A DNA stretch of 37,763 bases. Origin: Rhodospirillaceae bacterium (GTDB lineage: Bacteria; Pseudomonadota; Alphaproteobacteria; UBA8366). Position numbers and translations under genes: made by a program. The stretch is from positions 16,616 to 54,378 of the forward strand of contig PAXN01000004.1 of assembly GCA_002715005.1 (NCBI GenBank), read 5' to 3'. The notes beneath the pieces were generated by a model. It worked only from the letters and a program-made list of their open reading frames with translations. It was not told where the DNA came from and made no database searches. This document shows positions 2,781 through 36,914 of this stretch, in pieces. Position 1 is the first letter of the stretch. Every line of letters starts with the position of its first letter.

Positions 2781-3915
2781 GTGCGAGCGGAAATACAAAA
2801 TATTGTTGAAGAGTTTGAGCAGTCATTAGAACTGCTGAGGAGGCATCTTTGACCTTCATACGGCAGAAAAGAAACTTGAGAAACTGAATGAACAATCTGA
2901 GGATCCCAAGCTGTGGGACGATCCGACAAGGGCGCAAACTGTAATGCGGGCGCGGACCCGTTTGGAGGATGCGATATCCGGCTATCGCGCTCTCGAACAA
3001 GGTCTTGCCGATAACGTTGAACTCATTGAGTTAGCAGAAGCGGAAGGCGACGACGGGGTCATCGCTGAAGCAGAGTTAGCTCTATGCGAGCTGAAATCAC
3101 AAGCAGCAAAACAACAGCTTGAGAGCCTTTTATCAGGTGAAGCTGATGCTAATGATTGCTTTCTTGAAGCGCACGCTGGGGCAGGCGGCACTGAGTCCCA
3201 AGATTGGGCTGAGATGTTGGTGCGCATGTATGTGCGTTGGGCCGATCAACACAGTTATAAAGTAGAGCAAATAGAAGAAAGCCCTGGTGAAGAGGCAGGA
3301 ATAAAGTCGGTCACGCTCAAGATTAGCGGCATTAATGCTTATGGTTGGCTTAAGACCGAGAGCGGAGTGCATCGTCTCGTGAGGATTTCTCCATATGACT
3401 CAGCGTCAAGACGCCATACCAGCTTCGCGTCGGTCGGCGTATATCCAGTGATAGATGATGCGATTGAGGTCGAGATAAACGATGGAGAACTTAGGGTCGA
3501 TACTTACAGGGCGTCCGGTGCTGGCGGACAGCACGTAAATCGGACCGATAGCGCCGTGCGAATTACCCATGAACCAACTGGTATTGTCGTTCAATGTCAA
3601 AATGACAGGTCGCAACATAGAAATCGTGCAACAGCGCTGACGATGCTGAAAGCGCGCCTTTATGAACTTGAGTTGAAGAAGCGTGAGGATAAAGCGGCTG
3701 CGGAGCATGCTGCTAAGACGGATATTGGTTGGGGTCACCAAATTCGATCGTATGTTTTACATCCGTATAAAATGGTTAAGGACCTTCGCACCAACGTAGA
3801 AAATAGTAATGCAGAAGGTGTTCTGGATGGAAATTTGGATGAATTTCTTGAGGCGGCTTTAGCCGAACGGGCAATAGGTAAAGGGAGGCTCGTTGCGGAT
3901 CCTGGAAATGACTAG
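2781..3915 (+). CDS. prfB: Peptide chain release factor 2, with programmed +1 frameshift
   Basis: RF2 recognises UGA and UAA stop codons and triggers peptidyl-tRNA hydrolysis. Translation starts at GTG 2781 (AGAGGG just upstream) and reads 23 codons ([14 protein letters not shown]... to RRHL). It meets TGA at 2850-2852, shifts +1 and continues with [15 protein letters not shown] to the stop at 3913, giving about 377 residues, the normal RF2 length. Without the shift the N-terminal helical domain would be lost. The peptidyl-transferase motif GGQ is in [16 protein letters not shown]. The stop-recognition tripeptide reads SPY (in [12 protein letters not shown]) where the E. coli protein has SPF. 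The gene follows mrcA after about 200 bases. Confidence 0.96.
2838..2853 (+). promoter_or_regulatory. RF2 autoregulatory +1 frameshift site
   Basis: AGGAGG-CAT-CTT-TGA-C: an internal Shine-Dalgarno-like AGGAGG three bases before the slippery CTT, then in-frame TGA followed by C. This matches the geometry of the known RF2 site. When RF2 is scarce the ribosome pauses at TGA, shifts +1 on CTT-T and makes more RF2. The reading frame after TGA continues with conserved RF2 sequence. Confidence 0.95.
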
Positions 3916-20918: not shown

Positions 20919-20995
20919 GGCGGAGTAGCTCAGTTGGTTAGAGCAGTGGAATCATAATCCATGTGTCCGGGGTTCAAATCCCTGCTCCGCCACCA
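20919..20995 (+). tRNA. tRNA-Met (CAT), elongator
   Basis: A 77-base cloverleaf with encoded CCA. Acceptor stem GGCGGAG/CTCCGCC, D-arm GCTC...GAGC, anticodon stem GTGGA/TCCAT with loop ATCATAA (anticodon CAT at 20953-20955), T-arm CGGGG-TTCAAAT-CCCTG, discriminator A then CCA. The first acceptor base pair G-C argues against initiator tRNA. A tRNA-Ile with lysidine is less likely given its overall similarity to alphaproteobacterial elongator tRNA-Met. Confidence 0.95.
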
Positions 20996-21314: not shown

Positions 21315-21764
21315 ATGCTTCGGAAAGGCGGATATAGCGCTACGGACAATGCGATGACGGAGATCGCGCTGGCATTGGCTATGGGGTTTTTTGCGATAAT
21401 GGTGCTTGCCATAGTGTCGATGGGTGCCGGCGCAACAACGCCAAACGGGGCCGAGGAGATACCTAACAAGAAGCGAATTATGACTTCCGCCTTGGCATCT
21501 GCCTCTTCGCCCGATGCGATGGGTACGACAACAGTTTCCTCCAAAGATAGGCTCGTCATCTTCTATGACGGACGCTTTTACGACGATACTCTCAAGAAAA
21601 TTCTCCCTGAAAACTTAGGTCGGGGCGGTCGGGTCATCTTAGCCGTCCCGCCCACTCTTTCCATGTCGGAATCGCTCGGTGCTCGGGCGGAAGTAAGTAC
21701 AAGGGACCTCATCGTGACTACACTTGATCGTGCGTGGATGAAACGGCTGAAGGATTTGCGATAA
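21315..21764 (+). CDS. Small inner-membrane protein with MotB/TolR-like N-terminal helix
   Basis: 149 residues. The N-terminus DNAMTEIALALAMGFFAIMV (12-31) is a single membrane helix preceded by an aspartate in the pattern D-x-x-M-T. In MotB and its relatives this pattern (DFMT) carries the proton-binding Asp of a stator channel. A linker of about 30 residues follows, then a periplasmic domain (about 78-149: RLVIFYDGRFYDD and GGRVILAVPPTLS) reminiscent of ExbD/TolR in size and strand pattern. The family call is inference from this pattern; no known member is named. GAGGAG precedes the ATG. It starts the cluster and overlaps the next gene as TAATG. A MotA/TolQ-like partner lies at 28237. Confidence 0.6.
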   Translation: MLRKGGYSATDNAMTEIALALAMGFFAIMVLAIVSMGAGATTPNGAEEIPNKKRIMTSALASASSPDAMGTTTVSSKDRLVIFYDGRFYDDTLKKILPENLGRGGRVILAVPPTLSMSESLGARAEVSTRDLIVTTLDRAWMKRLKDLR

Positions 21765-22597
21765 TGATGAAGATAATTGTGCGTAGACTTACTGCGGTTT
21801 TCACTCTTGCGGTGGTGCTGGCTTGTTTTGGAGCGGTCCGTGATGCCACGGCGGAACGATCCGAAATGGGACCCAAGAAAATTCAACGGTTAGTCGCAAC
21901 GATAGCGGCGAGAAACGGCACCGTGCCACCGGCGCTAGCTCTCGCTGTTGCACAGGTGGAATCGAATTTTCGTGCCGATGCTAAAAGCCCTGTGGGTGCG
22001 CAAGGCGTGATGCAAATAATGCCTGCGACAGCAAAAGGGGTTTTCAATATTTCTGCTGACCATCTGCGAGATCCAAAAATAAACGTCCGCATTGGCGTTT
22101 CCTATTTGGAACGTCTTTATAGACAGTATGGCGGCCGTTGGGATTTGGCCCTTTCTCATTATAACGGCGGATCGCTGAAGCGCCAAAACGGTCGGTACGT
22201 TGCACATAGCTACACGCGAGGCTACGTGGCGAAGGTAATGCGTTACTGGCGCCAATTTCAACGGACATCAACGGCTATTTATCTTGCGCGCGTTGATCAA
22301 AAGGCACCTACTATCCGTTTCCTACCTACTGGTGGCAAGATGACAACGCAGCAGGCAAGGGCCATCAGCAATGGTTGGTGGGAGAGGAAACTTAGTTGGC
22401 GTCAATATTTAAATATTGCTGATCGGTTATTGAGTCGCGAGCTAACGAAAAGTCCGACTAGCCGGGTTCTAAAACCGCAGATGCGAGAGGTGGTTGGGAC
22501 CCAAAGCAAAGAGGTGCTGCATAACGACGCGCCTCTACGTTTTCACTCCGAAAGCTCTTTACCCGGTGATTTGTATAAAACTCCGCGATTTATGTAA
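21764..22597 (+). CDS. Secreted lytic transglycosylase (SLT family)
   Basis: Cuts peptidoglycan glycan strands, probably making room for an envelope complex. ATG 21764 overlaps the previous stop. The 277-residue protein has a signal peptide (1-30, ending DATA) and a lysozyme-like domain with catalytic Glu66 (AQVESNF), GAQGVMQIMPATA (78-90), INVRIGVSYLERLY (106-119) and LALSHYNGG (128-136). The C-terminal 110 residues are unlike known SLT extensions. Translational coupling to the MotB/TolR-like gene argues that both act together. Confidence 0.88.
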   Translation: MMKIIVRRLTAVFTLAVVLACFGAVRDATAERSEMGPKKIQRLVATIAARNGTVPPALALAVAQVESNFRADAKSPVGAQGVMQIMPATAKGVFNISADHLRDPKINVRIGVSYLERLYRQYGGRWDLALSHYNGGSLKRQNGRYVAHSYTRGYVAKVMRYWRQFQRTSTAIYLARVDQKAPTIRFLPTGGKMTTQQARAISNGWWERKLSWRQYLNIADRLLSRELTKSPTSRVLKPQMREVVGTQSKEVLHNDAPLRFHSESSLPGDLYKTPRFM

Positions 22598-22669
22598 CTA
22601 CATATAATAGTAGTAACAATGTTAAAGTCATCCAGTTACTCACGCGATCAAGGGACATAAATAGGGATC

Positions 22670-24184
22670 ATGAAGACTGAACTGTTTAAAGCACAGCAAA
22701 GTGATGCGTTGAGAGATGTATTTTCGTATTTGGCCGAGTCCTGTGAATTGGATAGCTCGGGTTACGGGGAACCAAGACGCAAATACGGTCCACGAACACT
22801 GCGATTTCTCTCCGCCGCAATTGTCTGTCGCTCCTATGATAAGATACTATACCGGCTATGCCATCTTACGCGTGCAGTAATGCTTGCCGATCGTCAGGGG
22901 CAGTACGATAAATTTTTTTTCGGGGACCGCAGTCCGGGCCGCGTTGACGGTGCAGCAGGATTTTTTCTCGACTATCAATCTGATACGAATAGAAAATCCG
23001 GTTTGCTCAGGGCTAATCCCGACGGAATTGTGATTGACTATGACGCTTCCGCGAAATCTGCGTTCGAAATTAGCTATAAACAAATACCACTCCTTGCGGC
23101 GATGCTCGAATTTCTCGTCTCCACTGTTGATTATGGTGAAATACACGAAATTTTTACTGGGTTAGATGAAGACAAAGTAACGCAAAAAGAGATCAGCGAA
23201 AGGAGCAAGCGATTATCAAAGGCGCTCTACGCTTATTTGGCAAAGCACCTAACGCCCGCCCAAAAACAGACAAAGTTTCAAAATATTTACAGGTACCTTG
23301 AAGGTAACTTGGGGTCATCTTTCGAGGAAGGAATGATCGACGATCAGTGCATAATCGATTTTTGGCTGAAAGAGTCGGTTGCGGGATCTACAAATATGTC
23401 TGACTTCAAGCAGTTCCGTACCGTATTTCTGGCATTTCTCCGATTTGTAGATCTTATGCGCGATGCAGAGGACCTAAGCTGTTTTGAGAACACACTTCCA
23501 TTCGGTACTGACCGCGATGCTGGTGAGTGGGAACCGGCCATGGAAGACGAATCCTATATGGCAACGAAGGTGGCGGACACCCAAGAGGATCCCCTGGACT
23601 TGCTTGCAATTGAACCGGCAAATGCGATTAAGTTTCTTAATGATACAGAAGCCAAATTGATAAAACTGCCAATTGAAGAAAAATTTGCCGGACGGTTTAT
23701 TCATTCCTACATGCGGTCCGAAATTTTCGGTCAGGCGCAGAACCGATTGACGCAGGTCTTGCGCTCCAATGCCAATGATTTGGGCCCATTGCTGAATAAC
23801 CCGACTTCTGAATCCTATAGCCAACGCATTGAGAAATTACGGCAGCTTGATAAGCATCTCGCTGATCTGTTGCTTGCGATTGCATTTGTTTTGCAGCGTG
23901 ACTGCCCGCGTGCTGAACAGGTTATCGTAAAGAGCTTAGATTTTAAAACGTTGTCCCAGGGCAAGCAGGTACTCGAAAAACTCAGTCGCAAAGGGTTCGA
24001 TGCTGCCAAGCGAGGTGATCCAGAGGCAACGGTCGCATTCGAGGTGGCATCCTCCCCATTAAGTGTAATTCGGGAGCGACTTAAGTCTTTGTTGCAAAGA
24101 TTTGCAGATGACGATTTTTGGCAGGGCATATTCGAGGCGGATCAGGAAGTTTTTATCGAACAATTCAAGCGTTTGTATGGGTGA
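22670..24184 (+). CDS. Conserved-looking cytoplasmic protein of unknown function, 504 residues
   Basis: No family recognised. No signal peptide or membrane helix, so probably cytoplasmic. Predominantly helical and charged, with an acidic middle (about 280-315, rich in Asp and Glu) that may separate two helical halves. ATG follows AGGG at good spacing. It lies 72 bases after the transglycosylase gene and 6 bases before the next gene, so it belongs to the cluster. A soluble regulator or cytoplasmic base of the proposed envelope complex would fit, as inference only. Confidence 0.8.
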   Translation: MKTELFKAQQSDALRDVFSYLAESCELDSSGYGEPRRKYGPRTLRFLSAAIVCRSYDKILYRLCHLTRAVMLADRQGQYDKFFFGDRSPGRVDGAAGFFLDYQSDTNRKSGLLRANPDGIVIDYDASAKSAFEISYKQIPLLAAMLEFLVSTVDYGEIHEIFTGLDEDKVTQKEISERSKRLSKALYAYLAKHLTPAQKQTKFQNIYRYLEGNLGSSFEEGMIDDQCIIDFWLKESVAGSTNMSDFKQFRTVFLAFLRFVDLMRDAEDLSCFENTLPFGTDRDAGEWEPAMEDESYMATKVADTQEDPLDLLAIEPANAIKFLNDTEAKLIKLPIEEKFAGRFIHSYMRSEIFGQAQNRLTQVLRSNANDLGPLLNNPTSESYSQRIEKLRQLDKHLADLLLAIAFVLQRDCPRAEQVIVKSLDFKTLSQGKQVLEKLSRKGFDAAKRGDPEATVAFEVASSPLSVIRERLKSLLQRFADDDFWQGIFEADQEVFIEQFKRLYG

Positions 24185-24190
24185 TTTGGT

Positions 24191-24754
24191 ATGAGTATAA
24201 CATGGAATAAAATCTCTAAAGAGCGTAAAGAGCGCATGGAACTAGCTTTCGAGCAGTTACACCTTGTTGACCTTATGGTCGACCAGCAATTAAATGCAAT
24301 CGACGCTGCAGATGAGCGTCCTGTTGGGTTTCAGGACCTCTATTCGGCCGCGGTTCAGCCCGAGGTGGCGATAAATGGCCGTATTGCAGATGCACTTGAG
24401 AATAATCCAAAATTGCGGCGGGATTTTGAGACGTTGCTGCAACAGACCGGCATTGCATGGTTTCCTGTTGCGGCCGCTGCCGAGACGGCAACGCTCGACG
24501 AGCGTGATGAAGCGTCTTTCCTCATTCGTATCCGTCCTTCGAAGGCAAATGAGGATCAGGTTTATGTTTTGGTTCGCCTGAAGGAACCGTCGGCAGTACA
24601 GCCACATGCTATTATTGCCTTGCCGCCAGAGGGTGTTCCGATAAAGAAAACTTTGCCGGTAGCGGTAGATAGCATGTTTCAATTATTGATGCAGCGGGAT
24701 GAACCTCTGGTGCGTGCGATACAAGACCGCAGATCAAAGCTGTCGCTCCAATAG
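24191..24754 (+). CDS. Unknown cytoplasmic protein, 187 residues
   Basis: No family recognised with confidence. Residues 55-85 (PEVAINGRIADALENNPKLR...FETLLQQ) resemble the helical segment seen at the start of anti-sigma-factor-like proteins, but no zinc ligands are present. The second half is a mixed sheet region (ASFLIRIRPSK, QVYVLVRLKEP). No signal peptide or membrane helix. It starts 6 bases after its neighbour and is followed after 23 bases by the Lon-like membrane protein, so all three were probably co-transcribed. Confidence 0.75.
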   Translation: MSITWNKISKERKERMELAFEQLHLVDLMVDQQLNAIDAADERPVGFQDLYSAAVQPEVAINGRIADALENNPKLRRDFETLLQQTGIAWFPVAAAAETATLDERDEASFLIRIRPSKANEDQVYVLVRLKEPSAVQPHAIIALPPEGVPIKKTLPVAVDSMFQLLMQRDEPLVRAIQDRRSKLSLQ

Positions 24755-24777
24755 TATAGTTAGTAGGTAAGATCGCC

Positions 24778-26151
24778 ATGACTGCGGTTCGTGTCCATAT
24801 TCTGACTACGGAAGGCCCGGCTACGGTCCAAGGGTTGGTGGTAGAGAGCTATGATAATGATGTGTTGGCGACGATCTGTCTTGATGGCACGACCGAACAA
24901 TTACCGATTTGCCGCGATTACCACATGTTCGTCGATCAGTTCATTCGTCCGCTTACCGGCGAACGGCGTTATCGGATGGATATCGATAATCGGATCGATG
25001 GAGGAAAAAGTTGGCACCTTGGCGTTTTGATTGCGCATTTACTCGCCGAGGATGGAAGGTTAGCGACCGATGGGCAGTCGTCGGTATATGCACTATTTGT
25101 GACCGGTCGTATTCGGAGGCAGCCCAGTGTTGATGAGCGCGTTTACGAGGTATTGCCTGTTGACGGCATCGCGGAAAAAATCGCAGCGTCGAGGGCTCAT
25201 ATAGAAGCCGAACAGGAGGCTGGCCGCAAAGTAGTGGTCCTTTTGCCTACTGGGAATATGAGTGCGGAATCCGATCGGCTAAAGGCTTTGCTACCCTCTG
25301 GGAACAATGATGAAGAACTCATTTTTGTTTCTGATGCGGATGAAGCATTGAGGGCATTAGAGCTGTCGCCTCTAAAAAGCGACCCTTCGTTACCGCCGGC
25401 ATCCACTCGTATGGATAAGGGGTCGTGGTTTCGTTACCTCCTGCAGCCAGCCGTTTTGGCAATGATCACGGTTCTTTTCATCGTTGGTTTGGCCGCTGGG
25501 TGCTATGCTGCTTGGCAACATTACAGTTCTGATTGGCAACGCTTATGGGATAAAGGTCGTTACGTATCGTTAACACAATCATTGGCATCCTCGCCGGTTC
25601 CGGTGTTGGCAGGTTTGTTCCGTTGGCAAGTAAGAGGGCAAAGTGGGCGCGGTGGCCTGCCGTTCGTACTAAGTGCAATGCGGCCGGCAGATGGCGGCTC
25701 TTGCGTCGGCCGTCGTTTTCGCGGTGGTGGTTTAGTTTCAAAGAAATTTAGTAGCAGTTCGGATGGGGAGCTTATCGCAGAAAACCCCGGGTCGCTGTGC
25801 GGTCTCGCTTTCCTTGTGACGAACAAGACTGCGGCGAGTTTGAATGTTCGCTTCGCAGCGGCCAGAAATATAATTCGAAAGGGACGTTCGGGTGACGTAT
25901 GGCAGACCGCCGTACTTGCGCCTGGGAAAGTGATGGCCGTGGATATTCCATTGTCGCTCTACGGCCAGGATAATGAGGCTTGGCGTATCATTATTGTTGG
26001 ATCGCCAGTGCCTTCTGAAGATTTAGATAAATTGGTACGGGCGGAGATTAGAAATTCGAAATCCCCCGCGGGATCGAGTGTATCTATCCCAGAAGACCTT
26101 TGGTCGCTCGGTCTCGCCTTCACCGAAGCTATGGTTCGAATTCGCCGTTAG
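24778..26151 (+). CDS. Membrane protein with cytoplasmic Lon-protease-like (S16) domain
   Basis: 457 residues. Residues 1-195 follow the order of a Lon proteolytic domain: DGGKSWHLGVLIAHLL (74-89) takes the place of DGPSAG, YALFVTGRI (104-112) of the VTGEI strand, VLPVDGIAEKIAAS (125-138) of the LP-GG-KEK helix, VVVLLPTGN (152-160) and LIFVSDADEAL (181-191). The catalytic pair would be Ser78 and Lys134. One membrane helix at about 220-243 follows, then a periplasmic domain (to 457) with a sheet pattern loosely like DUF4384. No ATPase domain is present. Whether it cleaves anything or only uses the fold is unknown. It is the most unusual protein of the cluster. Confidence 0.75.
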   Translation: MTAVRVHILTTEGPATVQGLVVESYDNDVLATICLDGTTEQLPICRDYHMFVDQFIRPLTGERRYRMDIDNRIDGGKSWHLGVLIAHLLAEDGRLATDGQSSVYALFVTGRIRRQPSVDERVYEVLPVDGIAEKIAASRAHIEAEQEAGRKVVVLLPTGNMSAESDRLKALLPSGNNDEELIFVSDADEALRALELSPLKSDPSLPPASTRMDKGSWFRYLLQPAVLAMITVLFIVGLAAGCYAAWQHYSSDWQRLWDKGRYVSLTQSLASSPVPVLAGLFRWQVRGQSGRGGLPFVLSAMRPADGGSCVGRRFRGGGLVSKKFSSSSDGELIAENPGSLCGLAFLVTNKTAASLNVRFAAARNIIRKGRSGDVWQTAVLAPGKVMAVDIPLSLYGQDNEAWRIIIVGSPVPSEDLDKLVRAEIRNSKSPAGSSVSIPEDLWSLGLAFTEAMVRIRR

Positions 26152-26152
26152 A

Positions 26153-26168
26153 CCCACGATCCAGTGGG
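26153..26168 (+). terminator. Hairpin between two cluster genes
   Basis: CCCAC-GATCCA-GTGGG immediately after the stop codon at 26149-26151, followed by CGTTTCTGTTTG. It could weakly end or attenuate transcription, splitting the cluster into two units, or protect the upstream message. The following gap (to 26260) is the longest inside the cluster. Confidence 0.35.
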
Positions 26169-26259
26169 CGTTTCTGTTTGCTGGTTATTTAGCGCCACAA
26201 TTTATCGCCTGATCCTTCCATTACCGTCGATAACGAAAAACTTTTCGACGGAGATTATC

Positions 26260-26844
26260 ATGAAGGTTAATGGAATTGTAAGCGGAGCGGCCAGGTGCTT
26301 GGTACTTCGAGTGGTTGGGGCGGCAGGATTAATGTTTGCGCTTGCCGCATGTCAGACAGGCGGTGGTAGCGGGTTTGCAGAGGAAGGCATTGGATACAGA
26401 GAAGCCCGGTTCGCTGAGATTACCGCGCTTCGGGGTTATCGTTCCTGTGCCGAGGAGGCACAGGCGCTTGATGTTAAAGCGCGTGAGACACGCTCGCCTG
26501 CCCGTTATCTCGCAAGCGCTCGACTGATCGAGCGTTGTGAAACGGAACTTGGAATGGGCGGCGCGGGCCTCGCACCCGAAGAGCGGATGCGAAATTACGC
26601 CTTGGCAGTTCATAATTATGTCCGCGGCGGCGATCTCAAAAGAGCTCGTGAAACTTTCGAGCGGTTTCAGACGGCATTCCCAAAGCAAGACCTTTATTAC
26701 ACCGATGGTTCGTCTTTCGTCGACACTACGCGGGCCCTACTTGGCCAAGCTAACGATCAGGAAATGGCGCGTTTTTCGATGCTTAATATAAGCAGTGCGT
26801 TGAAGGCGGAAATGAACCGTATTTCTCATTGGACAAACAATTGA
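26260..26844 (+). CDS. Lipoprotein, helical-repeat-like
   Basis: 194 residues from ATG 26260, preceded by CGGAG. The signal peptide ends in a lipobox, ALAAC, with Cys31 as the lipidated residue. The mature part is helical (ALRGYRSCAEEAQAL, YLASARLIERCETELG, YALAVHNYVRGGDLKRARET), resembling TPR-type repeats, so it may be a scaffold at the outer membrane. Longer in-frame starts upstream (26164) are rejected because they bury the signal peptide. It belongs to the cluster, 35 bases before the next gene. Confidence 0.82.
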   Translation: MKVNGIVSGAARCLVLRVVGAAGLMFALAACQTGGGSGFAEEGIGYREARFAEITALRGYRSCAEEAQALDVKARETRSPARYLASARLIERCETELGMGGAGLAPEERMRNYALAVHNYVRGGDLKRARETFERFQTAFPKQDLYYTDGSSFVDTTRALLGQANDQEMARFSMLNISSALKAEMNRISHWTNN

Positions 26845-26879
26845 TGGCGGCGGCCAAGCGCCGAAAAGGAGCAAAAACT

Positions 26880-27785
26880 ATGACCAATATATTGAGCCCC
26901 GCTTCTCTAACCAGAAGCAATTCCTACCGGACGATATTGGCCGGTGGGTTGGCGTTAGCTTTACTGTCTGTACCTATGACAGGACATGCGGGTGGCAAGG
27001 CTAGCTGGAGTCCGCAGGCCAGCGAACGCCTAGTCCGGCTGCCGTCTACTTATATTCAGCGATCGGTCGACCGCGACTTTGCTGGATCGAATCTAGCCGC
27101 TGCGATTGGTGATCAAGCCAAACAGATTGCTTCTAAAGAACAGAGTATTCGAGACCTGATGGCGGCTGTCCCGATGTCGGAAGGGAAGGTGCGTACGGAA
27201 TTGCAACACCAAGTCCTCGTCGAAAAGCGGGCTCTAGTGCAGCTCATGGGCGAGCGGATTGAATTGCAGCGACGGGCGACGAAGACCCGAATTGATCTTT
27301 ATAATAGCCTTCTGTCACGAGTGGTGAGCCAAGGCGATCTGGAAATGCCGAATGAAGCCGCATTAAGCCAGGCTCAGGATAATGCTCGAAAACGCCTTGC
27401 CCGCATAGCTACTAAGGTTGATACGACGATCTTTGGAAGCCAAGCGCGTCAAAGTAAATACGCAAAGGAATCTGCCAAATACGAGATGGCAATCCAAAAG
27501 CTGGCCCAAAAGATTAACAAGCATCCCATGAACCGGCTACCCAATATCGACGGTGAAAAAGTAGACCGTAAAACATATTTGCGACGCCTGATACAGGATC
27601 AGGAAACAGAATTTGCCTTCTATACCCAACAAGAAGAGGTGCTGGGTTACATGGGTAAGCTCGTAGCGCTCGATGCGATGGCGCTCAATGAGAAAATCGA
27701 ACAAGCCGATACGGGACCAGGTGGCGGTGGGGTAAAACCGCCATCCAACGTGGTCGCCGAAGCGGTCAAGCTATTCTTGGATTGA
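26880..27785 (+). CDS. Secreted coiled-coil protein
   Basis: 301 residues from ATG 26880, which has AAAAGGAG upstream; an earlier in-frame start is rejected because it lacks a ribosome site. A signal peptide of about 37 residues ends near MTGHAGG. The mature protein is almost entirely helical, with long charged coiled-coil-like stretches (AKQIASKEQSIRDL, LVEKRALVQLMGERIELQRR) and a Gly/Pro tail (TGPGGGGVKPP) before a last helix. No family recognised. A periplasmic rod or scaffold is a reasonable inference. Confidence 0.8.
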   Translation: MTNILSPASLTRSNSYRTILAGGLALALLSVPMTGHAGGKASWSPQASERLVRLPSTYIQRSVDRDFAGSNLAAAIGDQAKQIASKEQSIRDLMAAVPMSEGKVRTELQHQVLVEKRALVQLMGERIELQRRATKTRIDLYNSLLSRVVSQGDLEMPNEAALSQAQDNARKRLARIATKVDTTIFGSQARQSKYAKESAKYEMAIQKLAQKINKHPMNRLPNIDGEKVDRKTYLRRLIQDQETEFAFYTQQEEVLGYMGKLVALDAMALNEKIEQADTGPGGGGVKPPSNVVAEAVKLFLD

Positions 27786-27838
27786 AACTTAAACGCCTGT
27801 CCTAACGAAGGGGCAAGCATATGAAAAAAGGAGTTATA

Positions 27839-28237
27839 ATGATGAATAAGACAACTTTAGCCAAGGCGGTCATCCTGGGGGGTGCGCTTTCGTTCCTTTC
27901 CATGATGGCCATGGCGGGACCATTGGAAAATTTAGAACGCGAACGTGCGCATTTAGTCCGCGTAATGATAGATCCGTCGCTAGTACCCGCGGAACGCCAA
28001 AGTCGATTGGAACAGGCAACGCGCCGGTTGGTCGATATGGAGCGAATGGTTATCCGCGATAAGGACCTTGCCAAGACAAGCTCACCGGCAGCGGGTAGTG
28101 CGCTCACAAATTACGATTTGACATTTCTTGCCCACGCTTCTGTAGAAAAAGGCGTATCGGTGACCGACCATTGGCTAAATGGTGTAGGACTATCCACGCC
28201 CGCCTTGATGAGCACGCGGATGGGGAGACGGTGGTGA
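27839..28237 (+). CDS. Small secreted protein of unknown function
   Basis: 132 residues from ATG 27839, placed after AAAAAAGGAG; the in-frame ATG at 27821 lies before that ribosome site and is rejected. The signal peptide ends at MAMA (about residue 26). Mature residues 28-78 form an amphipathic helical pair (LENLERERAHLVRVM, RLEQATRRLVDMERMV), similar in style to the preceding coiled-coil protein. The stop codon overlaps the next ATG (TGATG), so it is coupled to the MotA/TolQ-like gene. Confidence 0.75.
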   Translation: MMNKTTLAKAVILGGALSFLSMMAMAGPLENLERERAHLVRVMIDPSLVPAERQSRLEQATRRLVDMERMVIRDKDLAKTSSPAAGSALTNYDLTFLAHASVEKGVSVTDHWLNGVGLSTPALMSTRMGRRW

Positions 28238-28734
28238 TGCGCTCCCAAGTCATGCAAATGGTTGGTACGGTTTCGCGGTCGGCCAACTACGTGTTCGGGG
28301 GCGCAGTCATAGCCCTTGCCATCGCGGTAGCGATATCCGCTGTAGGGCCTATGGATGTTCTTAGCTGGCTTCACGGTACCGTCGGCATGGCGTTTATCCT
28401 GTTATTCTCTGTGTTGGCTATAGTGACAATTTTTTGCTGGACGAACATCCTGACTAGGTCCGTTCATACAGAATTTTGGCTCGAAGCCGGGTTGCACGCG
28501 GCATCCGGGATAGCCACCGCCGCGCTGACATTTACTTTGCTTGGAATTAGTTTGGGGATAGGTGTACTTGCTGAACAAACGCTTACGCCAGAATCCGTCC
28601 AGCCCATCATTTCAGATCTTACGCACCGGTTTAGTCTTGCGTTTTTTACAACAGTCATCGGGCTACCCGTTTCAGCCGCGCTGCGAGCATTGCTTCTTAT
28701 TACTTATGCCCAGAAACAACCTACGCAATCCTAA
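28237..28734 (+). CDS. MotA/TolQ/ExbB-like proton-channel membrane protein
   Basis: 165 residues from ATG 28237, chosen because it overlaps the upstream stop and starts right before the first helix. Four membrane helices at about 17-37, 48-71, 88-113 and 131-157. Helices 3 and 4 carry the signatures of the stator family: AALTFTLLGISLGIG (95-109), matching the TolQ/ExbB LLG-T-LGI turn, and FSLAFFTTVIGLPVSAALR (132-150), matching the A-x-x-TT-x-x-G-L-x-x-x-x-P pattern with conserved threonines facing the pore. It lacks the large cytoplasmic loop of TolQ and MotA. Family assignment is by motif reading; a structure prediction would settle it. Confidence 0.65.
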   Translation: MRSQVMQMVGTVSRSANYVFGGAVIALAIAVAISAVGPMDVLSWLHGTVGMAFILLFSVLAIVTIFCWTNILTRSVHTEFWLEAGLHAASGIATAALTFTLLGISLGIGVLAEQTLTPESVQPIISDLTHRFSLAFFTTVIGLPVSAALRALLLITYAQKQPTQS

Positions 28735-28757
28735 CCTAGCAAATCCGGAGTCACTTC

Positions 28758-29273
28758 ATGAAATATATAGCCTTTAATATCATTGTGATTTTTTCGTTAG
28801 GGTACCTCTTCCTAGCTCCCTCTAGCATACCGACGGTAGGACAAACCGGTGGAGAAATGGCCTCGGTTGGACGCTCTGTACAGTCCAATGTACCTGTGTC
28901 GGCATCGACGGTGACGCCATCGCCGATGCCGCCAAAGGCTGCCCCCGATACGTCTGAAAACAAGTTATGGCAACCCGACAGCGGATCCTTGGGAAAAGAA
29001 AAAAAAGAGGCTTTAGCAAAAGGTACCCCTGAGACCGCGCGGCAGGATGAACCAGTTCGGCAAGACCCCGACATACCAGCACGGCCAAAGGCAAACCCTG
29101 AAAGTAGGCACGAGCAGAAACCTATGAATGACCCTGCTCCATCCAATGCAAATCGTAACGTAATAGCCGTTGCGAAGGGCGAACAGTTGATGCGGCCAAA
29201 CGTGCGTCGCAACGAACTCCACAAGCTTGCCGAAGAGATGGAGTTATTTTTTCTGAATCGAACAATACGGTAA
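28758..29273 (+). CDS. Membrane-anchored proline-rich linker protein
   Basis: 171 residues with one N-terminal membrane helix (MKYIAFNIIVIFSLGYLFLA) and then about 110 residues of Pro/Ala/Ser/Lys-rich, probably extended periplasmic chain. A short helical end follows (RRNELHKLAEEMELFFLNRT). This is the layout of TonB/TolA-type energy transducers, but no TonB motif is visible. GGAG precedes the ATG. It follows the proton-channel gene by 23 bases, where TolA/TonB-like genes often lie. Confidence 0.7.
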   Translation: MKYIAFNIIVIFSLGYLFLAPSSIPTVGQTGGEMASVGRSVQSNVPVSASTVTPSPMPPKAAPDTSENKLWQPDSGSLGKEKKEALAKGTPETARQDEPVRQDPDIPARPKANPESRHEQKPMNDPAPSNANRNVIAVAKGEQLMRPNVRRNELHKLAEEMELFFLNRTIR

Positions 29274-29284
29274 GGAGAGTGCTT

Positions 29285-30391
29285 ATGTTCAAAGGAGCCG
29301 GAACAGCCTATGCAGGCGCCATCCTAGGGTTGCTGTTGATAGCGACTACGGGAAAGCCCCAACAGAATGAGGTTAGTAATTCCTCGTCTGAAGAAACGCC
29401 TAGTGCGGCACCAACAAAGATGCCGGAGACCCGACAGATGAAACCGGTACAGGGGAAACCTGTCGCAATGGACAAAATCGTATTACCGCCTCCGCCGATA
29501 GCAAATCGGGAGCTGAAGTCTAGCAAGAAAATTCAGCGCCAGGTCAAGACAAGTAAGTTGAATGCTCTACAGCGGCCGGCGATGCCGACGTCGAGTGCAG
29601 TTGTTCAAGAGATAGAACCTTTGAAAATTAAACCTATGCCGAGCACCGTAGCTCATGCTCATCGCACAATTCAGCCGCTAAAGGAAATAGCGCCGAAGCC
29701 GGTAGCGAAGGATGGTAGTGCGTCTGTCAAACACAACGCTTTGAACAACCTGGAGTTGACAGACTACCGTAAAAAGCGCGTTGCCCAGGAGTCATCAAAA
29801 GAAGAACGGGCTATCAGTAATATCGTTGAACCGATTGAAAATGGCGCCGCAGAACGTAGCGATATTAATGGAAGGGCGCTTGTCCGGATGCTGGAACATG
29901 GTTCTGGGCCGAATATTCGCCTTGCTTGGCCGGATGGGCGGCGTAACCGTGAAGTTCTATTTCAGATGCTCACTACCTGCTTTGGTATGAAGACGGGTGT
30001 GATGGATAGTAATGGTTCAGTTTTCAACGAGGGTACGGCACCTGGTACACCCTGGCCTATAGACCTGGATAAATATAGCGGGTTTTTGCGCCATGCTGAC
30101 GGAGTACTCGCGCCGAGCGAGGCGAAATTAGTATATCGTATAGTGGGGCGCCATCGTCTCTCACCACAAAGCAAGGTGGTGAGAATTTTCCCTCGGGCCT
30201 TTGATGCTTCACTTCTAGCGGGAATTAGCAGAATTGCTAGTCGCAACCTTAAAGAGGGATCAAATGTCAGAGCACGCTACGAAATGATGGGTGGTAGTCT
30301 CAATGTGTCCCAAGTTGTGGTGAACGAAAAGTCGAAGTCAGGGAAAATAAAGTTCTCCACGCACTCAAAACCTTGCTCAATATCTGGATAG
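29285..30391 (+). CDS. N-anchored linker protein with unknown periplasmic C-terminal domain
   Basis: 368 residues from ATG 29285, seven bases after AAGGAG; a GTG at 29279 is too close to it. A weak N-terminal hydrophobic helix (about 5-22) is followed by some 170 residues of Pro/Lys-rich linker (VLPPPPIANRELK, EPLKIKPMPS, KEIAPKPVAK). A globular C-terminal domain (about 193-368) contains two cysteines (232 and 364) that could form a disulfide. The plan, anchor-linker-globule, is that of TolA or TonB, but the globular domain is not one I recognise. Confidence 0.75.
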   Translation: MFKGAGTAYAGAILGLLLIATTGKPQQNEVSNSSSEETPSAAPTKMPETRQMKPVQGKPVAMDKIVLPPPPIANRELKSSKKIQRQVKTSKLNALQRPAMPTSSAVVQEIEPLKIKPMPSTVAHAHRTIQPLKEIAPKPVAKDGSASVKHNALNNLELTDYRKKRVAQESSKEERAISNIVEPIENGAAERSDINGRALVRMLEHGSGPNIRLAWPDGRRNREVLFQMLTTCFGMKTGVMDSNGSVFNEGTAPGTPWPIDLDKYSGFLRHADGVLAPSEAKLVYRIVGRHRLSPQSKVVRIFPRAFDASLLAGISRIASRNLKEGSNVRARYEMMGGSLNVSQVVVNEKSKSGKIKFSTHSKPCSISG

Positions 30392-30396
30392 GAAAA

Positions 30397-31116
30397 ATGG
30401 GTTCGAATTCAACGATAACGGCTATCGTGATATGTTTTGGTCTCATAGTCGGCGCCTGCTCCACGCAGCACACAGGCTATAAAAATGAAAAAACGCCGGA
30501 GGACCTATTCCAGCGTCGCATCGAGTCTGAAATTAAGGATGCATTCTATCGGCAGCCACCGAATTGCGTGACGGTGCTTCCCGTCGAGGATTCGGGTGGT
30601 AAGAAGTTTGGCGACCCGCTCATTGAAAATGCAATAGCTAGGCATGCACGCGATCGGTTCGATCGAGTGATAGGGCATGCCGAACGTGAGCACTTGGTAA
30701 GGCGGCTTGGCTTTGATCTTAATAATTCTATTGATCGTCAGAGGTACGCCGATAAAAGTAAGTGCGGCAATTTCCTCGAATTCGTTCCTTGGGGTGGTCG
30801 GTCGGCATATTTGGTAGTTTGGAGCCGCCGTGCTTTCGGTATCGAAGCGCGGTTGATAGATCCTGCGAGAAAGACGATCCTCTGGCGTGCGCGCCATGAG
30901 GCGAAGCGAAGTGCAGGAGGATTAGCGATATCCCCACTTGGCGCTGTAATGCAGGTAGTAGACACAACTGCTCAGCAGAGTGATAATGATATAATGGCAT
31001 CTTTGGCGGATGATGTGGCAAGACGCTTGATGACAAGTCTGCCAGACCTTCGGTCATCCAGGATGGCGATACCTGGTATTTCTTCGGCTAATTTTGGCTT
31101 GCCGCATACAAAATAA
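30397..31116 (+). CDS. Lipoprotein, GNA1162/DUF799-like
   Basis: 239 residues from ATG 30397, preceded by AGGAAAA, 5 bases after the previous stop. Lipobox LIVGAC with lipidated Cys21. The mature protein has the alternating sheet-helix pattern of CsgG/GNA1162-type periplasmic domains: VTVLPVEDSGGKKFGDPLIENA, then YLVVWSRRAFGIEARLIDP and TILWRARHEAKRSAGG, then LADDVARRLMTSLPD. These lipoproteins act as outer-membrane accessory parts in several envelope machines. The family placement is tentative. Confidence 0.7.
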   Translation: MGSNSTITAIVICFGLIVGACSTQHTGYKNEKTPEDLFQRRIESEIKDAFYRQPPNCVTVLPVEDSGGKKFGDPLIENAIARHARDRFDRVIGHAEREHLVRRLGFDLNNSIDRQRYADKSKCGNFLEFVPWGGRSAYLVVWSRRAFGIEARLIDPARKTILWRARHEAKRSAGGLAISPLGAVMQVVDTTAQQSDNDIMASLADDVARRLMTSLPDLRSSRMAIPGISSANFGLPHTK

Positions 31117-31131
31117 TGGGGGCAGACTTCA

Positions 31132-31677
31132 ATGATCAGCAGGCTTATTTTATCTTTACCTGCCTTTATGGTTGTTGGTTTTATAGCGGTGGCGGCGCAC
31201 GCAACCGAAATCATTGGTCGCGACATACTAATCGGCAAACTTTATCCTATCACGGGTGAACCGATAAAGACGGTCCATTTCGCAATCCCCTTCGTCTTCG
31301 ACTCTGCAAGGTTGGAGCCTGCTGCATACAAACAGCTAGATGAATTGGGCGCTGCGCTAGCGTCCGAGAAGATGGCGGGACTGGTTATCGGGGTCTATGG
31401 CCACACGGATGCGTTTGGTCCGTCAGCCCACAATGCTAAACTCTCTTTGGCGCGCGCGAAGAGCGTTGTCAGTTATATGGTTGGGCGGTTTAAGTTGATA
31501 GAAAACGAGATTACACTTGCTGGCTTTGGCGAAAGCAAGCCGCTCGACCCTGCAGACCCCTATGCGGCGATCAATCGTCGTGTGGAGGTGACAGTGCGGT
31601 TGCCAGGGGCAAAATCCCCAAAGCCGGATAATGAAGCTAAGCCAAGTCTTGACGGATCATTTATTATCAATAAATGA
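31132..31677 (+). CDS. OmpA-family peptidoglycan-binding protein (Pal/MotB C-terminal type)
   Basis: 181 residues with a cleavable signal peptide (to about residue 24, AAHA). The OmpA-like domain (about 46-157) has FVFDSARLEPAAYKQLDEL, VIGVYGHTDAFG with the diaminopimelate-binding Asp93, LSLARAKSVVSYM with the matching arginine, ITLAGFGESKPL and AAINRRVEVTV. It lacks a lipobox, so it is soluble in the periplasm or held by partners. It should anchor the cluster's complex to the cell wall. The stop overlaps the next ATG (ATGA). Confidence 0.9.
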   Translation: MISRLILSLPAFMVVGFIAVAAHATEIIGRDILIGKLYPITGEPIKTVHFAIPFVFDSARLEPAAYKQLDELGAALASEKMAGLVIGVYGHTDAFGPSAHNAKLSLARAKSVVSYMVGRFKLIENEITLAGFGESKPLDPADPYAAINRRVEVTVRLPGAKSPKPDNEAKPSLDGSFIINK

Positions 31678-33449
31678 GTTTGTATCATCAGAATGAAAGC
31701 AACCTGAACAAGCGTCTGAGATTACTTTCGATGAAACGGTCGAAACCTTGTCTGAGAACACCAATCTGCGGAATTTCATTTATGCACTTGCGCGGTTCTA
31801 TCCCTCTATTTGTGGCAGTCGCGTTTTTGGCTGGAATTATCCCAATGTCCGCTTGGGCATTTTGGGGGAACGAAAAATCCCAAGATAAAGCGTGTTCTGA
31901 GAGCCCAGCGCTTTGTTTGGCGATCGATTTGCTGCGCAATGTAGAAAAGGGAAATCGAGTGGCACTTCGTCCCTTAATACCGCGCGAAACGGGATTGCCT
32001 GCTGCGATTAGTAGACGGTTATATGAGGATATCTTGCAAGCTCTATCCAAGGTGTCGAAGGGCAGACAGGAAATTATCGCGCGCTCTCGTCTCGGCAAGA
32101 TTTGGGATAGTTGGGAAAATCAATATGAAACGGATATACAACGATTCATTAAGGAAACGCGCGCCGATGTAGAGATAATCTGCGAAAGAACCGCAAGACC
32201 GGAAGCGGTCGGTCTATCCTGCACCTCAACCGCGCTTTCGAGCGGAAAGCATGTCGGCGAAGGCCGCGCTGTCTTCCCGCAAAAGGATATTTTCACACCG
32301 GAAATATTGGATATTGCGGTTACTGCATTGGCAAAAAATTTACTGGTGGATCTGGAAGCTGCTAAGCCTGCTAAATTGGGTGTGCTTTTAGATATGAACT
32401 CTGGGTCCTCTAGTGAACTCGCCAATTTTCTTGGGAAACGACTACTGGCTGCGCTTAATCCAATGCTCATTGCCGAACAAAGGACCAAGAGAAAACAAAA
32501 GGAATTGAACCAGGCGGTGAAGGGCGATAGTTCAATTCTTGTTTCGTCGGGAGGCGAATTTACGCTCAATTGTGAAATTTTGCCGGAGAAAAACCGTGTG
32601 ACATTGGACGCCAGGCTATCGGATGGCGCCCGCCGAATATCCTATCGGTCTGTTACGATCGATCCCAAAAGTATTCCTGCTAGATATCTTAGCTCCCCGG
32701 GAGGTTTGGCAAAACAATATGTCGCGACGGGCGTGGCAATTATCTCCAAAAAATTAGACCGGCAAAGCGCAATTCGCGCCGCCCGTAACCTTGCGCGCGC
32801 GCGCGTTGTGGCGCAAGCGTTGGCAATCCAAGCGCCGGCCATTCGGGAGGTTCGAACTGAAGCGCATGGCATGCGAGTTTTACAAGGAACTCTAGACAAG
32901 GGGGTGCCGTTGCACGAGCAATTTCGCCGTCTTGATGACGGCGGCGCCAACCGACTGACTTATGAGCTTCGGGCTACGGTGAAGTATGTGGGAAGCAAGG
33001 CGCATCCGAATATTTCCGCTCACCTCAACAAAAAAGTCTATCGTGCTGGGCTCGACCCTATTTCGATCAGGCTCAGTGCTAAAACCGCAGCACGAATTGC
33101 CGTTTTTGGATGGGGCGCTGATAATAAAGTAATCCGCCTATATCCTAATAGGCTTGATCCCGACTTATTTTTGCCTGCGGGAGGCGTTTTGGCGTTGCCA
33201 AGGAAGGACGAAGCAAGAATTTTGTCTGCGCCGATGCCGGGTAATAATAATCAACAGGATCATGAAGCCTTGATCCTTGTGGCGGCCAATGGAGTGGTAC
33301 CATTTTCAAAGATCGTGCCGCTGGCCGGGATAAGCGTTGGTGGAACCATGGATGTGGCAATTGGTATTGGTACGTTTTTCGAGAGGCTTGCGGAGTACGA
33401 TTTAGCACAAATGACGATCCGAATTTTACCCTACCAGGTGGTCGATTAG
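31674..33449 (+). CDS. Secreted protein with DUF4384-like C-terminal domain
   Basis: 591 residues from the coupled ATG 31674. A classical signal peptide begins only at Met37 (MHLRGSIPLFVAVAFLAGII), so translation may really start at 31782. Residues about 95-330 look like a CsgG/FlgO-type periplasmic fold (LPAAISRRLYEDILQALSKV, EIIARSRLGKIWDSW, ADVEIICERTA). A helical segment at 362-390 (RAARNLARARVVAQALAI) is LPP20/FlgT-like. The DUF4384-like part spans about 455-560 (VYRAGLDPISIRLSAKT, IAVFGWGADNKVIRLYPN, LPAGGVLALP). It is the last gene of the cluster. Domain names other than DUF4384 are tentative. Confidence 0.75.
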   Translation: MSLYHQNESNLNKRLRLLSMKRSKPCLRTPICGISFMHLRGSIPLFVAVAFLAGIIPMSAWAFWGNEKSQDKACSESPALCLAIDLLRNVEKGNRVALRPLIPRETGLPAAISRRLYEDILQALSKVSKGRQEIIARSRLGKIWDSWENQYETDIQRFIKETRADVEIICERTARPEAVGLSCTSTALSSGKHVGEGRAVFPQKDIFTPEILDIAVTALAKNLLVDLEAAKPAKLGVLLDMNSGSSSELANFLGKRLLAALNPMLIAEQRTKRKQKELNQAVKGDSSILVSSGGEFTLNCEILPEKNRVTLDARLSDGARRISYRSVTIDPKSIPARYLSSPGGLAKQYVATGVAIISKKLDRQSAIRAARNLARARVVAQALAIQAPAIREVRTEAHGMRVLQGTLDKGVPLHEQFRRLDDGGANRLTYELRATVKYVGSKAHPNISAHLNKKVYRAGLDPISIRLSAKTAARIAVFGWGADNKVIRLYPNRLDPDLFLPAGGVLALPRKDEARILSAPMPGNNNQQDHEALILVAANGVVPFSKIVPLAGISVGGTMDVAIGIGTFFERLAEYDLAQMTIRILPYQVVD

Positions 33450-34104: not shown

Positions 34105-34293
34105 TTAAAGGCACATCGCTTGGGCATCATATCCATTTTCTGAAATCGTCAGGACGGCGGTGTCACTGTTCGTTAAACGAACACAGAATTCATCATCTGA
34201 GGAGCGCCAAGATAAATATTTATCAAGATCTAAGGTCACGGTTTTCACAGATGTTGCTTCGTATAAAGCAGATATTATTTCCAACCGTTCCAA
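34105..34293 (-). CDS. Small open frame overlapping the end of the large secreted protein gene
   Basis: About 62 codons, only TTG starts (34293 or 34284), no ribosome site. It overlaps the upstream gene's last 19 bases in another frame. The peptide (KTVTLDLDKYLSWRSSDD, FCVRLTNSDTAVLTISENG) looks protein-like. It could be a coupled small gene, or the end of a formerly longer protein separated by a frameshift. Evidence is weak. Confidence 0.3.
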   Translation of the reverse strand: MERLEIISALYEATSVKTVTLDLDKYLSWRSSDDEFCVRLTNSDTAVLTISENGYDAQAMCL

Positions 34294-36428
34294 TCATCAG
34301 AAGCGCCGCTTCCGCAATAATTCCAAGAACCTTTAAATTTATTATTTGCATCATTTACCTCACCCCAGAGGTTACCCCAACATTGAGTCTTTACTCCATT
34401 ACGCGAGGTTTTGGTGCTTCCACAACCTGGCTCTTCTTGACCACAATTTCTTGCCCAGTAGCCTTTGTAAAAAATTCCATCACTAGAGGACAATGAAACC
34501 CAGCCCATCGCCCTATCATTATAACGGGCCGTAAACCTACCATCTGCATCTACCGCTACCACAACCGGGCCCCAAGTGCTTTGCCATACTTCGCCTCCTG
34601 ACGTATCGCCAACCGTTCCATTTTGAAGTGTTGCTATGCGAGCCCGAAGACGCTTCTCAGCTTCTGCTTTCTTTCGCGCTTCGGCTTCAGCTGCACGAAG
34701 GCGCTCTATCTCCTCAGCTTCAGCTCGGCGACGTTTTTCTGCCTCTATTTCTGCAGCGCGGCGAAGGCGCTCTTCCTCTTTGGCCCGCCGTGCTTGTATC
34801 TCCGCAAGCTCGCGGCGTTTTCGCTCAAGTTCAGGATCTAGAGAACCCATTGACGCCGTAAATTCATATGCTTGGCCAACGCCACACTCTTTTATGTACC
34901 CGTTAAATGTTCCGTTTAAGGGTTTTTTAAATGCCACGATTGATCCCCAGCACGATGACGGTTGCCCATCTAATGTCTGGTATTGGGCAGACCAACCATT
35001 TTTCTTATAAGTACGGGCCTTCTTTGAGCTCCGACAAGTTTGGTAATCTCTAGTGTTGTCTGTATTATTGGTCTTACTCCACCACTGATCAAATGCTGTA
35101 TACCCCCGGCATTTCCTAGCCCAATGCCCAGTATATTTTTTTCCATCTTTCGTCCACATTCTAATGACGCCATTAGCATGTGCAGAAAATTTTGCAGCGA
35201 AATGGCTTTTGGCATTATTATTTCCTGGATTATCGCGCAATACAGCAATTGGACCTAAAGTGGTTTTCCAAATTGGAAAACTTTCTGCGTTTTTTAACAC
35301 AGAAAATGTTCCTCTTTTAAGCGACCCAAAACTTCCATCAGGCATTTTCTTTTGTGGCTTTAGTCTTTTGATATTGGTTATTGCTGCGTAATCGTGCTGC
35401 GGTCGCATTATTGGGCGGCCGCATTCAGTGAAGTAAAATGTATCCCCGTTTTCCTGAATTTGGCACTGAGCTTTGATCAGGCCAGGACGATCACCTTTCC
35501 AGTAGGATACGAGAACAAGATACTGCTCGTTTCCTAATGATTTCAGATATTCAATTGTGCCGTGCCACCTTCCATTATTGTGATGCACGAAATTATAGAT
35601 TGGTTTGGATTTCAATTCTAATGACTGAGTGAATGCTGCTTCCTTAATATCCAGTAGACCTTGCTTTTCATGACTAAATAGGCGGTAATCTGGATCTTGG
35701 TTTGGGTCACCTTCAGAACCTATTTTTGGCTTTTCAAAGACTGCGTTTCTGCCTACGACTACACGCCAGTCGAAACCATCAATTTTTTGCACCCAGATAC
35801 AATGCTGACGCATAACAGCGTGTGCCATGCCTTTTATGTTGCCGCCTTCACTATATCGCGGGTGGTGTTTTGCGAAGTCTTTGTTATAAACTTTTGTGCC
35901 GGGTTTCCATTTCTCTGGAATAGGCTTGCATGTATTAAAGTCAGATGGGATGAGGCCTGGTGTCTTGGCGATGGTTTCTGGCTTTGCAGATATTTTTTGC
36001 TTCGCTGTGCCCGCTCGGACATAACTTAGTGTATTTCCTAGACCAACAAGAGATAAGTTTAATTCAGTTTTAGATAGTTTAACGATTGCCAGACACATCT
36101 CCTCATCATCGGGGAAGACCACAAATTTTCCATTTGCGTCAATATTGCCTCCATGATTCAAACAATTGTTTGCAACTGCAAAATTGTTTGATTCTTGGAT
36201 TTTATTTTCATACTTACCAATCCACTTTTGTCCAGCTACCGTTAGTGATGCTTTTTGATCATTAACGCTTGTCCAATTACCCTGGAGTTGAGCAACGTTG
36301 TCAGCGTTTGCTGTGCCGGCACTGGTCAAAATTAGTAGCGCGAAGGTAGCGAAAAATTTTGTGACATGAAAAATGTCGGTATCATCCGCGAAGAAACAGC
36401 ATATTAGTCGCGGCATCAAACGGTTCAT
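34275..36428 (-). CDS. Large secreted protein with duplicated Cys/Trp-rich domain around a charged helix
   Basis: 717 residues from ATG 36428, preceded by GAAGGT; a longer in-frame start at 36563 has no ribosome site. The signal peptide ends near SAGTANA (about residue 42). An N-terminal small beta domain follows (QGNWTSVND ... LSLVGLGNTLSYVRAG). Repeat A is at about 383-522 (WKTTLGPIAVL, YTGHWARKCRG, CWGSIVAF, GTFNGYIKECGVGQ). A highly charged Arg/Glu/Ala single helix lies at 532-603. Repeat B is at about 612-711 (WQSTWGPVVVA, YKGYWARNCGQ, CWGNLWGEV, FKGSWNYCGSG). Conserved cysteines in both repeats suggest disulfides in the periplasm or outside. No family name is known to me. Confidence 0.8.
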   Translation of the reverse strand: MNRLMPRLICCFFADDTDIFHVTKFFATFALLILTSAGTANADNVAQLQGNWTSVNDQKASLTVAGQKWIGKYENKIQESNNFAVANNCLNHGGNIDANGKFVVFPDDEEMCLAIVKLSKTELNLSLVGLGNTLSYVRAGTAKQKISAKPETIAKTPGLIPSDFNTCKPIPEKWKPGTKVYNKDFAKHHPRYSEGGNIKGMAHAVMRQHCIWVQKIDGFDWRVVVGRNAVFEKPKIGSEGDPNQDPDYRLFSHEKQGLLDIKEAAFTQSLELKSKPIYNFVHHNNGRWHGTIEYLKSLGNEQYLVLVSYWKGDRPGLIKAQCQIQENGDTFYFTECGRPIMRPQHDYAAITNIKRLKPQKKMPDGSFGSLKRGTFSVLKNAESFPIWKTTLGPIAVLRDNPGNNNAKSHFAAKFSAHANGVIRMWTKDGKKYTGHWARKCRGYTAFDQWWSKTNNTDNTRDYQTCRSSKKARTYKKNGWSAQYQTLDGQPSSCWGSIVAFKKPLNGTFNGYIKECGVGQAYEFTASMGSLDPELERKRRELAEIQARRAKEEERLRRAAEIEAEKRRRAEAEEIERLRAAEAEARKKAEAEKRLRARIATLQNGTVGDTSGGEVWQSTWGPVVVAVDADGRFTARYNDRAMGWVSLSSSDGIFYKGYWARNCGQEEPGCGSTKTSRNGVKTQCWGNLWGEVNDANNKFKGSWNYCGSGASDDWNGWK

Positions 36429-36914
36429 GTCTGAGCGACCTTCACTTGTTGCCGGGTCCTTGTTGTCTCTTAACAACTCGACGTAGAGATTGTTCAGACG
36501 GCTGCTCGTATTGATAAAAAACAACTTCCTAACAAGTTTATTACTAATCATTTGGCTGTCCATAAGTCAGGCATCGGTTAGGAACCATTGTAAATTAATA
36601 ATCCATTTGATTTCACCCGAGAATCCATTTCCCAAACAAAAAACTTAGCGACTACTAAAACCACTCTTTCGTGAAAGTATAAAGTCCCGTTATACAAATA
36701 AATGTAAATTAAGTTTATCCAATTAAAAATTGTTATTAAAAAATGGTAAAATAATTATAATATAATATAAATAAAAGTACCTTAGAATTATTTTTACCAT
36801 TATTTTGTACGTTATACCCCCAAACTTTACTAAACTCATTTCTATGAAAACCCGAGTATAACATTCTGCCAGATAATTATTTTGCTTCTTTGAGGCGCTT
36901 GCGCCAAGGAAAAA
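36429..36914. other. AT-rich gap upstream of the large secreted protein
   Basis: Very AT-rich, with no supported gene. It probably contains the promoter of the minus-strand gene. Apart from the palindrome listed next, only a small CTTTC-GT-GAAAG repeat near 36666 is seen. Confidence 0.5.

Follow-up and report, generated by a model that had tools for sequence, protein, structure and literature searches.

Few ion-driven envelope motors are known. The rotary motors of the 5:2 type (MotAB, ExbBD, TolQR, GldLM, AglRQS, and ZorAB) combine a four-helix A-subunit with a single-helix B-subunit that carries a conserved acidic residue (PMC9389320, PMC12204202). Published surveys cover MotAB, ExbBD, TolQR, GldLM, AglRQS, and the vWA transducer systems (PMC9389320, PMC12204202), and the survey of 2025 considers that further motor-driven trans-envelope systems are still to be discovered (PMC12204202). 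This article describes a cluster of 14 genes in a stretch of 37,763 nucleotides (the window) from a Rhodospirillaceae bacterium (GCA_002715005.1, contig PAXN01000004.1, positions 16,616 to 54,378 of the forward strand). The genes are conserved and inherited together as an evolutionary unit of two modules and, judging from sequence comparisons and structure models, probably encode a distinct trans-envelope machine, so far undescribed, with a 5:2-type ion-driven motor at its centre, of which the genes here called Q and R would specify the A- and B-subunits.

Gene content and conservation of the cluster

The genes occupy 21315-33449 of the window, tightly packed on a single strand, with coordinates and strand as first listed for the window:

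R, 21315..21764, + strand: candidate TolR/MotB-like B-subunit; transmembrane (TM) helix, linker, and small periplasmic domain
slt, 21764..22597, + strand: lytic transglycosylase (SLT); start overlaps the R stop
cyt, 22670..24184, + strand: soluble protein of 504 amino acids, no known family
c2, 24191..24754, + strand: soluble protein, no known family, always adjoins cyt
lon, 24778..26151, + strand: N-terminal Lon/S16-type domain, TM segment at ~217-247, C-terminal domain with two conserved Cys
LpA, 26260..26844, + strand: lipoprotein (LAAC) with invariant Cys63 and Cys93
CC, 26880..27785, + strand: secreted helix-rich periplasmic protein; core
cc2, 27821..28237, + strand: small secreted helix-rich protein; core
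Q, 28237..28734, + strand: candidate four-helix A-subunit, MotA/TolQ/ExbB-like; core
x, 28758..29273, + strand: N-anchored, Pro-rich linker, conserved C-terminal helix motif
A, 29279..30391, + strand: N-anchored, Pro-rich linker, conserved C-terminal domain of ~165 amino acids without known family; core
LpB, 30397..31116, + strand: lipoprotein (VGAC), weakly GNA1162-like
omp, 31132..31677, + strand: secreted OmpA-domain protein; accessory
D4384, 31674..33449, + strand: secreted protein with C-terminal DUF4384; accessory

Taking the likeliest start codon for each gene gives exactly three stop/start overlaps, at R/slt (TAATG, 21764), cc2/Q (28237), and omp/D4384 (31674). A sequence-only reading of the window had reported same-strand genes with at least three such overlaps, and its operon description was therefore right; the protein types that it assigned also hold, except for the product of 31132, called OmpA/Pal-like, which is not Pal because it carries a Sec-type signal but lacks a lipobox. 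Pfam gives family names only to slt, 31132, and 31674, and scans of the submitted cluster proteins with NCBIfam and PADLOC identified nothing credible apart from the OmpA domain. A set of ~12 of these neighbouring genes, most of them outside any known family, is shared by more than 100 bacteria.

The same genes stand side by side at 25-60% identity in 12 loci of related genomes (tblastn), and conservation at this level in many distant genomes places the clustering far beyond chance. A scan of the genome collection with the Q alignment gave 139 relatives; 80 were retained, and iterated profile searches on their loci supplied the counts for the 40 homologous loci that have full flanks. Each of CC, cc2, Q, and A occurs in 40/40 of these loci and LpA in 39/40, followed by x (31/40), R (30/40), slt (29/40), and cyt, c2, lon, and LpB (25/40 each); D4384 is present in 14/40 and the OmpA gene in 4/40, so that both are accessory and fall outside the conserved core. 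All 190 of the 190 core neighbours scored share the strand of Q, and gene order is conserved across ~90 loci. The sequence-only reading had staked its case on the genes staying together in related genomes, and they do; among the four products whose co-occurrence it proposed to follow, those of 28237, 24778, and 22670 (Q, lon, and cyt) bear it out at the frequencies above, and that of 31132 (omp) does not.

The two modules are R-slt-cyt-c2-lon (21315-26151) and LpA-CC-cc2-Q-x-A-(LpB). They vary between genomes in order or orientation, the former being separately movable, and in some relatives extra secreted proteins are encoded upstream of R. In two genomes, G020 and G038, ~300 kilobases (kb) separate the R-cyt module from Q, and four genomes of the same genus (G012, G026, G040, and G041) are without both Q and R-cyt. 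Profiles of Q, R, and cyt match an identical set of 10 of the 28 near-complete genomes of the window's order. For independent genomes the chance of such an agreement would be 1 in 13,123,110; these genomes, however, are not independent. A second, highly diverged form of the cluster, L194 (G019:C11:56000-75000), carries R, slt, cyt, lon, LpA, CC, cc2, Q, x, A, and LpB on a single strand. Three genomes appear to hold two copies of the Q cluster each (L039 with L058, L048 with L054, and L045 with L065).

Candidate motor subunits

Comparisons of profiles and of predicted structures make it likely, though not proven, that Q and R form a 5:2-type motor. Q has four hydrophobic segments. When a Q profile that includes the divergent Q of L194 was aligned by hhalign with a cleaned MotA/TolQ/ExbB (MotA_ExbB) set, the match had P=0.00096, and with an uncharacterised PF01618 subgroup (L021, L141, and L142) P=0.00012; in both cases 0/60 block-shuffled profiles scored as high. 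The alignment places the conserved TM3 and the conserved TM4 'TT..GL' stretch of Q in register with MotA/TolQ/ExbB, so that the Gly/Thr pore motifs of the last two helices are detectable at the profile level, and the Q of L194 carries a canonical-looking VSTIIGV. The AlphaFold (AF2) model of Q has a predicted local distance difference test score (pLDDT) of 92 and a predicted TM-score (pTM) of 0.83, and a Foldseek search with it against 350,542 PDB chains returned TolQ, MotA, and ExbB for all of the top 16 matches (best E 0.15, TM-score <0.4), none of which is significant alone. As a single sequence, Q is without any Pfam assignment and its link to PF01618 is sub-threshold; single-sequence matches of Q were set aside as evidence on account of false positives at E ~1e-4 (AzlC-like proteins, L022/L023).

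The subgroup just mentioned comes from an uncharacterised motor-like pair (L021:955-2404, - strand; also in L141 and L142), in which behind a PF01618 A-subunit comes a protein with a single helix, an Asp, and a large C-terminal domain (FRDVIMLALLGFV...). Of the PF01618 proteins compared with Q, its A-subunit is the closest relative; the profile alignment of R with its B-subunits is not above shuffles.

R has a short N-terminal tail, one TM helix (10-37), a disordered linker, and a periplasmic domain of bb-b-a-b-a topology. Glu16, within the TM helix, is invariant in 45/45 aligned homologues and is retained in the diverged L194 copy. The periplasmic domain is confidently modelled, and, among the PDB matches listed, the one with the highest Foldseek probability is Escherichia coli TolR (5by4; 0.66, E 0.28).

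Several results weigh against assigning the two proteins to this motor type. The PF01618 cut-off is reached by 0/11 members of the Q alignment (A1), the window Q included, and the ExbD and MotB families by 0/6 members of alignment A2; the profile alignment of R with a cleaned ExbD/TolR set does not rise above shuffles, 11/40 of which score as high; and the Foldseek E-values exceed 0.1, with low TM-scores (~0.2-0.5), for Q and R alike. The acidic residue of the R helix is a Glu and not the invariant Asp of known B-subunits, and the R and Q genes are non-adjacent, unlike those of most motor pairs. With a Glu in this position, genes in separate modules, and homology below the thresholds, Q and R would be a strongly diverged motor pair.

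Remaining components, proposed mechanism, and alternative readings

Every envelope layer is represented among the products of the cluster. slt belongs to the SLT family (PF01464, 91.7 bits against a cut-off of 21.3, E 3e-26), the product of 31132 has an OmpA domain (Pfam E 1e-17), and that of 31674 a DUF4384 (Pfam E 2e-8), the slot of the latter ending in PG_binding_1 instead in some relatives. A and x have a TolA/TonB-like anchor-linker layout without sequence similarity to TolA or TonB, and a small protein of cluster 4 (nine loci, seen in Paraglaciecola) may be the gammaproteobacterial counterpart of x. The N-terminal domain of lon matches Lon structures in the PDB (profile E 7e-6), and its Ser78 and Lys134, which do not vary across 22 sequences, correspond to the Ser-Lys pair of Lon S16; no AAA+ domain accompanies it. 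cyt and c2 are devoid of TM segments and fall in no known family, the invariant residues of cyt being D225, W232, R349, Q357, and Y383. Profile searches of the PDB with cyt, A, LpA, LpB, and CC gave nothing credible.

Taken together, the cluster most likely encodes a new trans-envelope system driven by the proton motive force, unlike Tol, Ton, Zorya, Gld, or Agl. A pentameric Q channel would surround an R dimer whose helices supply the ion-binding Glu (Glu16), and ion flow would turn or stroke this motor. slt would make a gap in the peptidoglycan, through which A and/or x, anchored in the inner membrane and extended by their Pro-rich linkers, could pass the motion to the periplasmic helical proteins CC and cc2 and to the presumed outer-membrane lipoproteins LpA and LpB. 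cyt and c2, with the membrane-tethered Lon-type domain, may dock, gate, or regulate the motor from the cytoplasm, and the motion might serve motility on surfaces or the transport of adhesins, export, or upkeep of the outer membrane. The sequence-only reading had proposed a parallel machine with its own proton channel, transducer, wall anchor, and cytoplasmic part, and this proposal stands in that the genes are co-conserved and the channel candidates independently resemble 5:2-motor A- and B-subunits, but the OmpA 'wall anchor', with its 4/40 loci, is accessory and not a defining part. A bolder and more tentative possibility is that the cluster represents a categorically new class of energised trans-envelope system, of the rank of the Tol, Ton, and gliding motors, with its own highly diverged Glu-type 5:2 motor and two modules, in which a tethered Lon-type peptidase and a cytoplasmic complex would couple the state of the cell interior to outer-membrane force.

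Machines that cross the cell wall typically have an SLT enzyme of their own. The presence of one in the cluster lends itself to a rather unlikely alternative, an envelope-spanning apparatus for secretion or for assembly of a surface structure, in which Q and R would be structural, slt would open the wall, A, x, CC, and cc2 would form a conduit, and LpA and LpB the outer-membrane part. The helix-rich CC faintly resembles a type III secretion system stalk (EscO, E 0.44), and the motor homology of Q and R is weak by single-sequence statistics; however, each of the two retrieves the A- or B-subunits of one motor type as its top or most probable matches, the R helix has an invariant acidic residue, and scans with Pfam and NCBIfam found no secretion ATPase, secretin, or pilin family in the cluster.

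It is improbable that the cluster is a diverged Tol-Pal paralogue for parallel outer-membrane tethering, in spite of a common plan of Q, R, an N-anchored linker protein, lipoproteins, and, in some loci, an OmpA-domain protein. Neither a TolB propeller, a Pal lipoprotein, nor TolA is encoded in the cluster, A having no match to the TolA/TonB C-terminal domain; the OmpA gene is missing from 36/40 loci; and cyt, c2, lon, CC, and cc2 are without Tol counterparts. The ordinary tol-pal genes, which the sequence-only reading had advised locating, were found elsewhere in the host genome as a ybgC-tolQ-tolR-(tolA position)-tolB-pal-ybgF operon; the cluster is therefore not the housekeeping Tol system. 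More improbable still is a Zorya-like anti-phage defence system, suggested by weak ZorA matches for Q (E 0.1) and ZorB matches for 31132 (E 8e-8). The latter reflect a shared OmpA domain only, in an accessory gene; no ZorC, ZorD, ZorE, or other PADLOC effector was detected among the ten proteins scanned, periplasmic and lipoprotein components predominate, and no relatives were found in plasmids with Q as query or in phages with CC as query. Chance clustering of unrelated envelope genes, among which generic anchors and linkers are common, is refuted by the gene order shared across loci and by co-occurrence even when the modules are unlinked.

Distribution, surroundings, and comparison with known systems

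A clear Q was found in only 7/397 Pseudomonadota genomes, an eighth match being marginal (E 1e-4), and the system is therefore patchy. Its relatives occur in Rhodospirillales, Kiloniellales, Sneathiellales, and SAR116, together with marine Alteromonadales. The carriers are mainly marine bacteria and include the cultivable Terasakiella pusilla, Aestuariispira insulae, Paraglaciecola, Colwellia, and Pseudoalteromonas denitrificans. In the CC tree 15/16 gammaproteobacterial rows form one strongly supported group, a pattern that would fit one main transfer between classes followed by vertical descent. One record (L089, CP051228.1) is titled Mesoflavibacter (Bacteroidota) and has the content of an alphaproteobacterial genome of the window's order; it is likely a mislabelled metagenome-assembled genome.

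Between mnmA and the cluster lies a tRNA-Met (window 20919-20995), a possible insertion site. The guanine-cytosine content of the cluster interior reaches 0.516, slightly above the flanks (0.45-0.50). A 762-amino-acid protein with no family above cut-off (window 34275-36563, - strand) faces the cluster and is kept in a same-genus genome. Elsewhere in the window, at 2787-2860, upstream of the listed start of prfB (2944-3915), a frame ...LLRRHL-TGA ends at CTTTGA (2847), with a GAGGAGG motif before it; a second frame continues, as is classical for release factor 2 with its +1 programmed frameshift. The true prfB start lies further upstream.

The cluster is defined by a strict gene set and can be deleted in the cultivable carriers. 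If the proposed motor-driven machine is real, it adds a motor with Glu for Asp, and a Lon-type domain inside an envelope machine, and it points to functions to seek for ~10 unnamed protein families. The sequence-only reading could name no matching system. The comparisons with Tol-Pal and Zorya failed, and no description of the gene set was found in a search confined to open-licence papers, an absence that is no proof. In layout, and tentatively in predicted fold, Q is like TolQ and R like TolR, and N-anchored linker proteins and lipoproteins are further points of likeness to Tol-Pal, but the cluster adds an SLT enzyme, a Lon-type domain protein, cyt, c2, CC, and cc2, and the C-terminal domain of A is unrelated by sequence. 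The lon protein shares with Lon (S16) proteases of non-AAA form the Ser-Lys pair and the surrounding motifs of its N-terminal domain; it differs from Lon in having no AAA+ unfoldase and in continuing into a TM segment and a C-terminal domain that bears cysteines. Compared with the 5:2 rotary motors, whose pairing of a four-helix subunit with a single-helix subunit bearing a conserved acidic residue they share, Q and R fall below Pfam cut-offs, have Glu for Asp, and are encoded in separate modules beside unlike partners. The vWA force transducers encoded beside TolQ-like genes (Williams-Jones et al. 2025, PMC12204202) belong to other taxa and another gene set, the present cluster having a TolR-like gene and no vWA domain, but they resemble the proposed machine in being previously undescribed, motor-driven transducer systems uncovered through gene neighbourhood.

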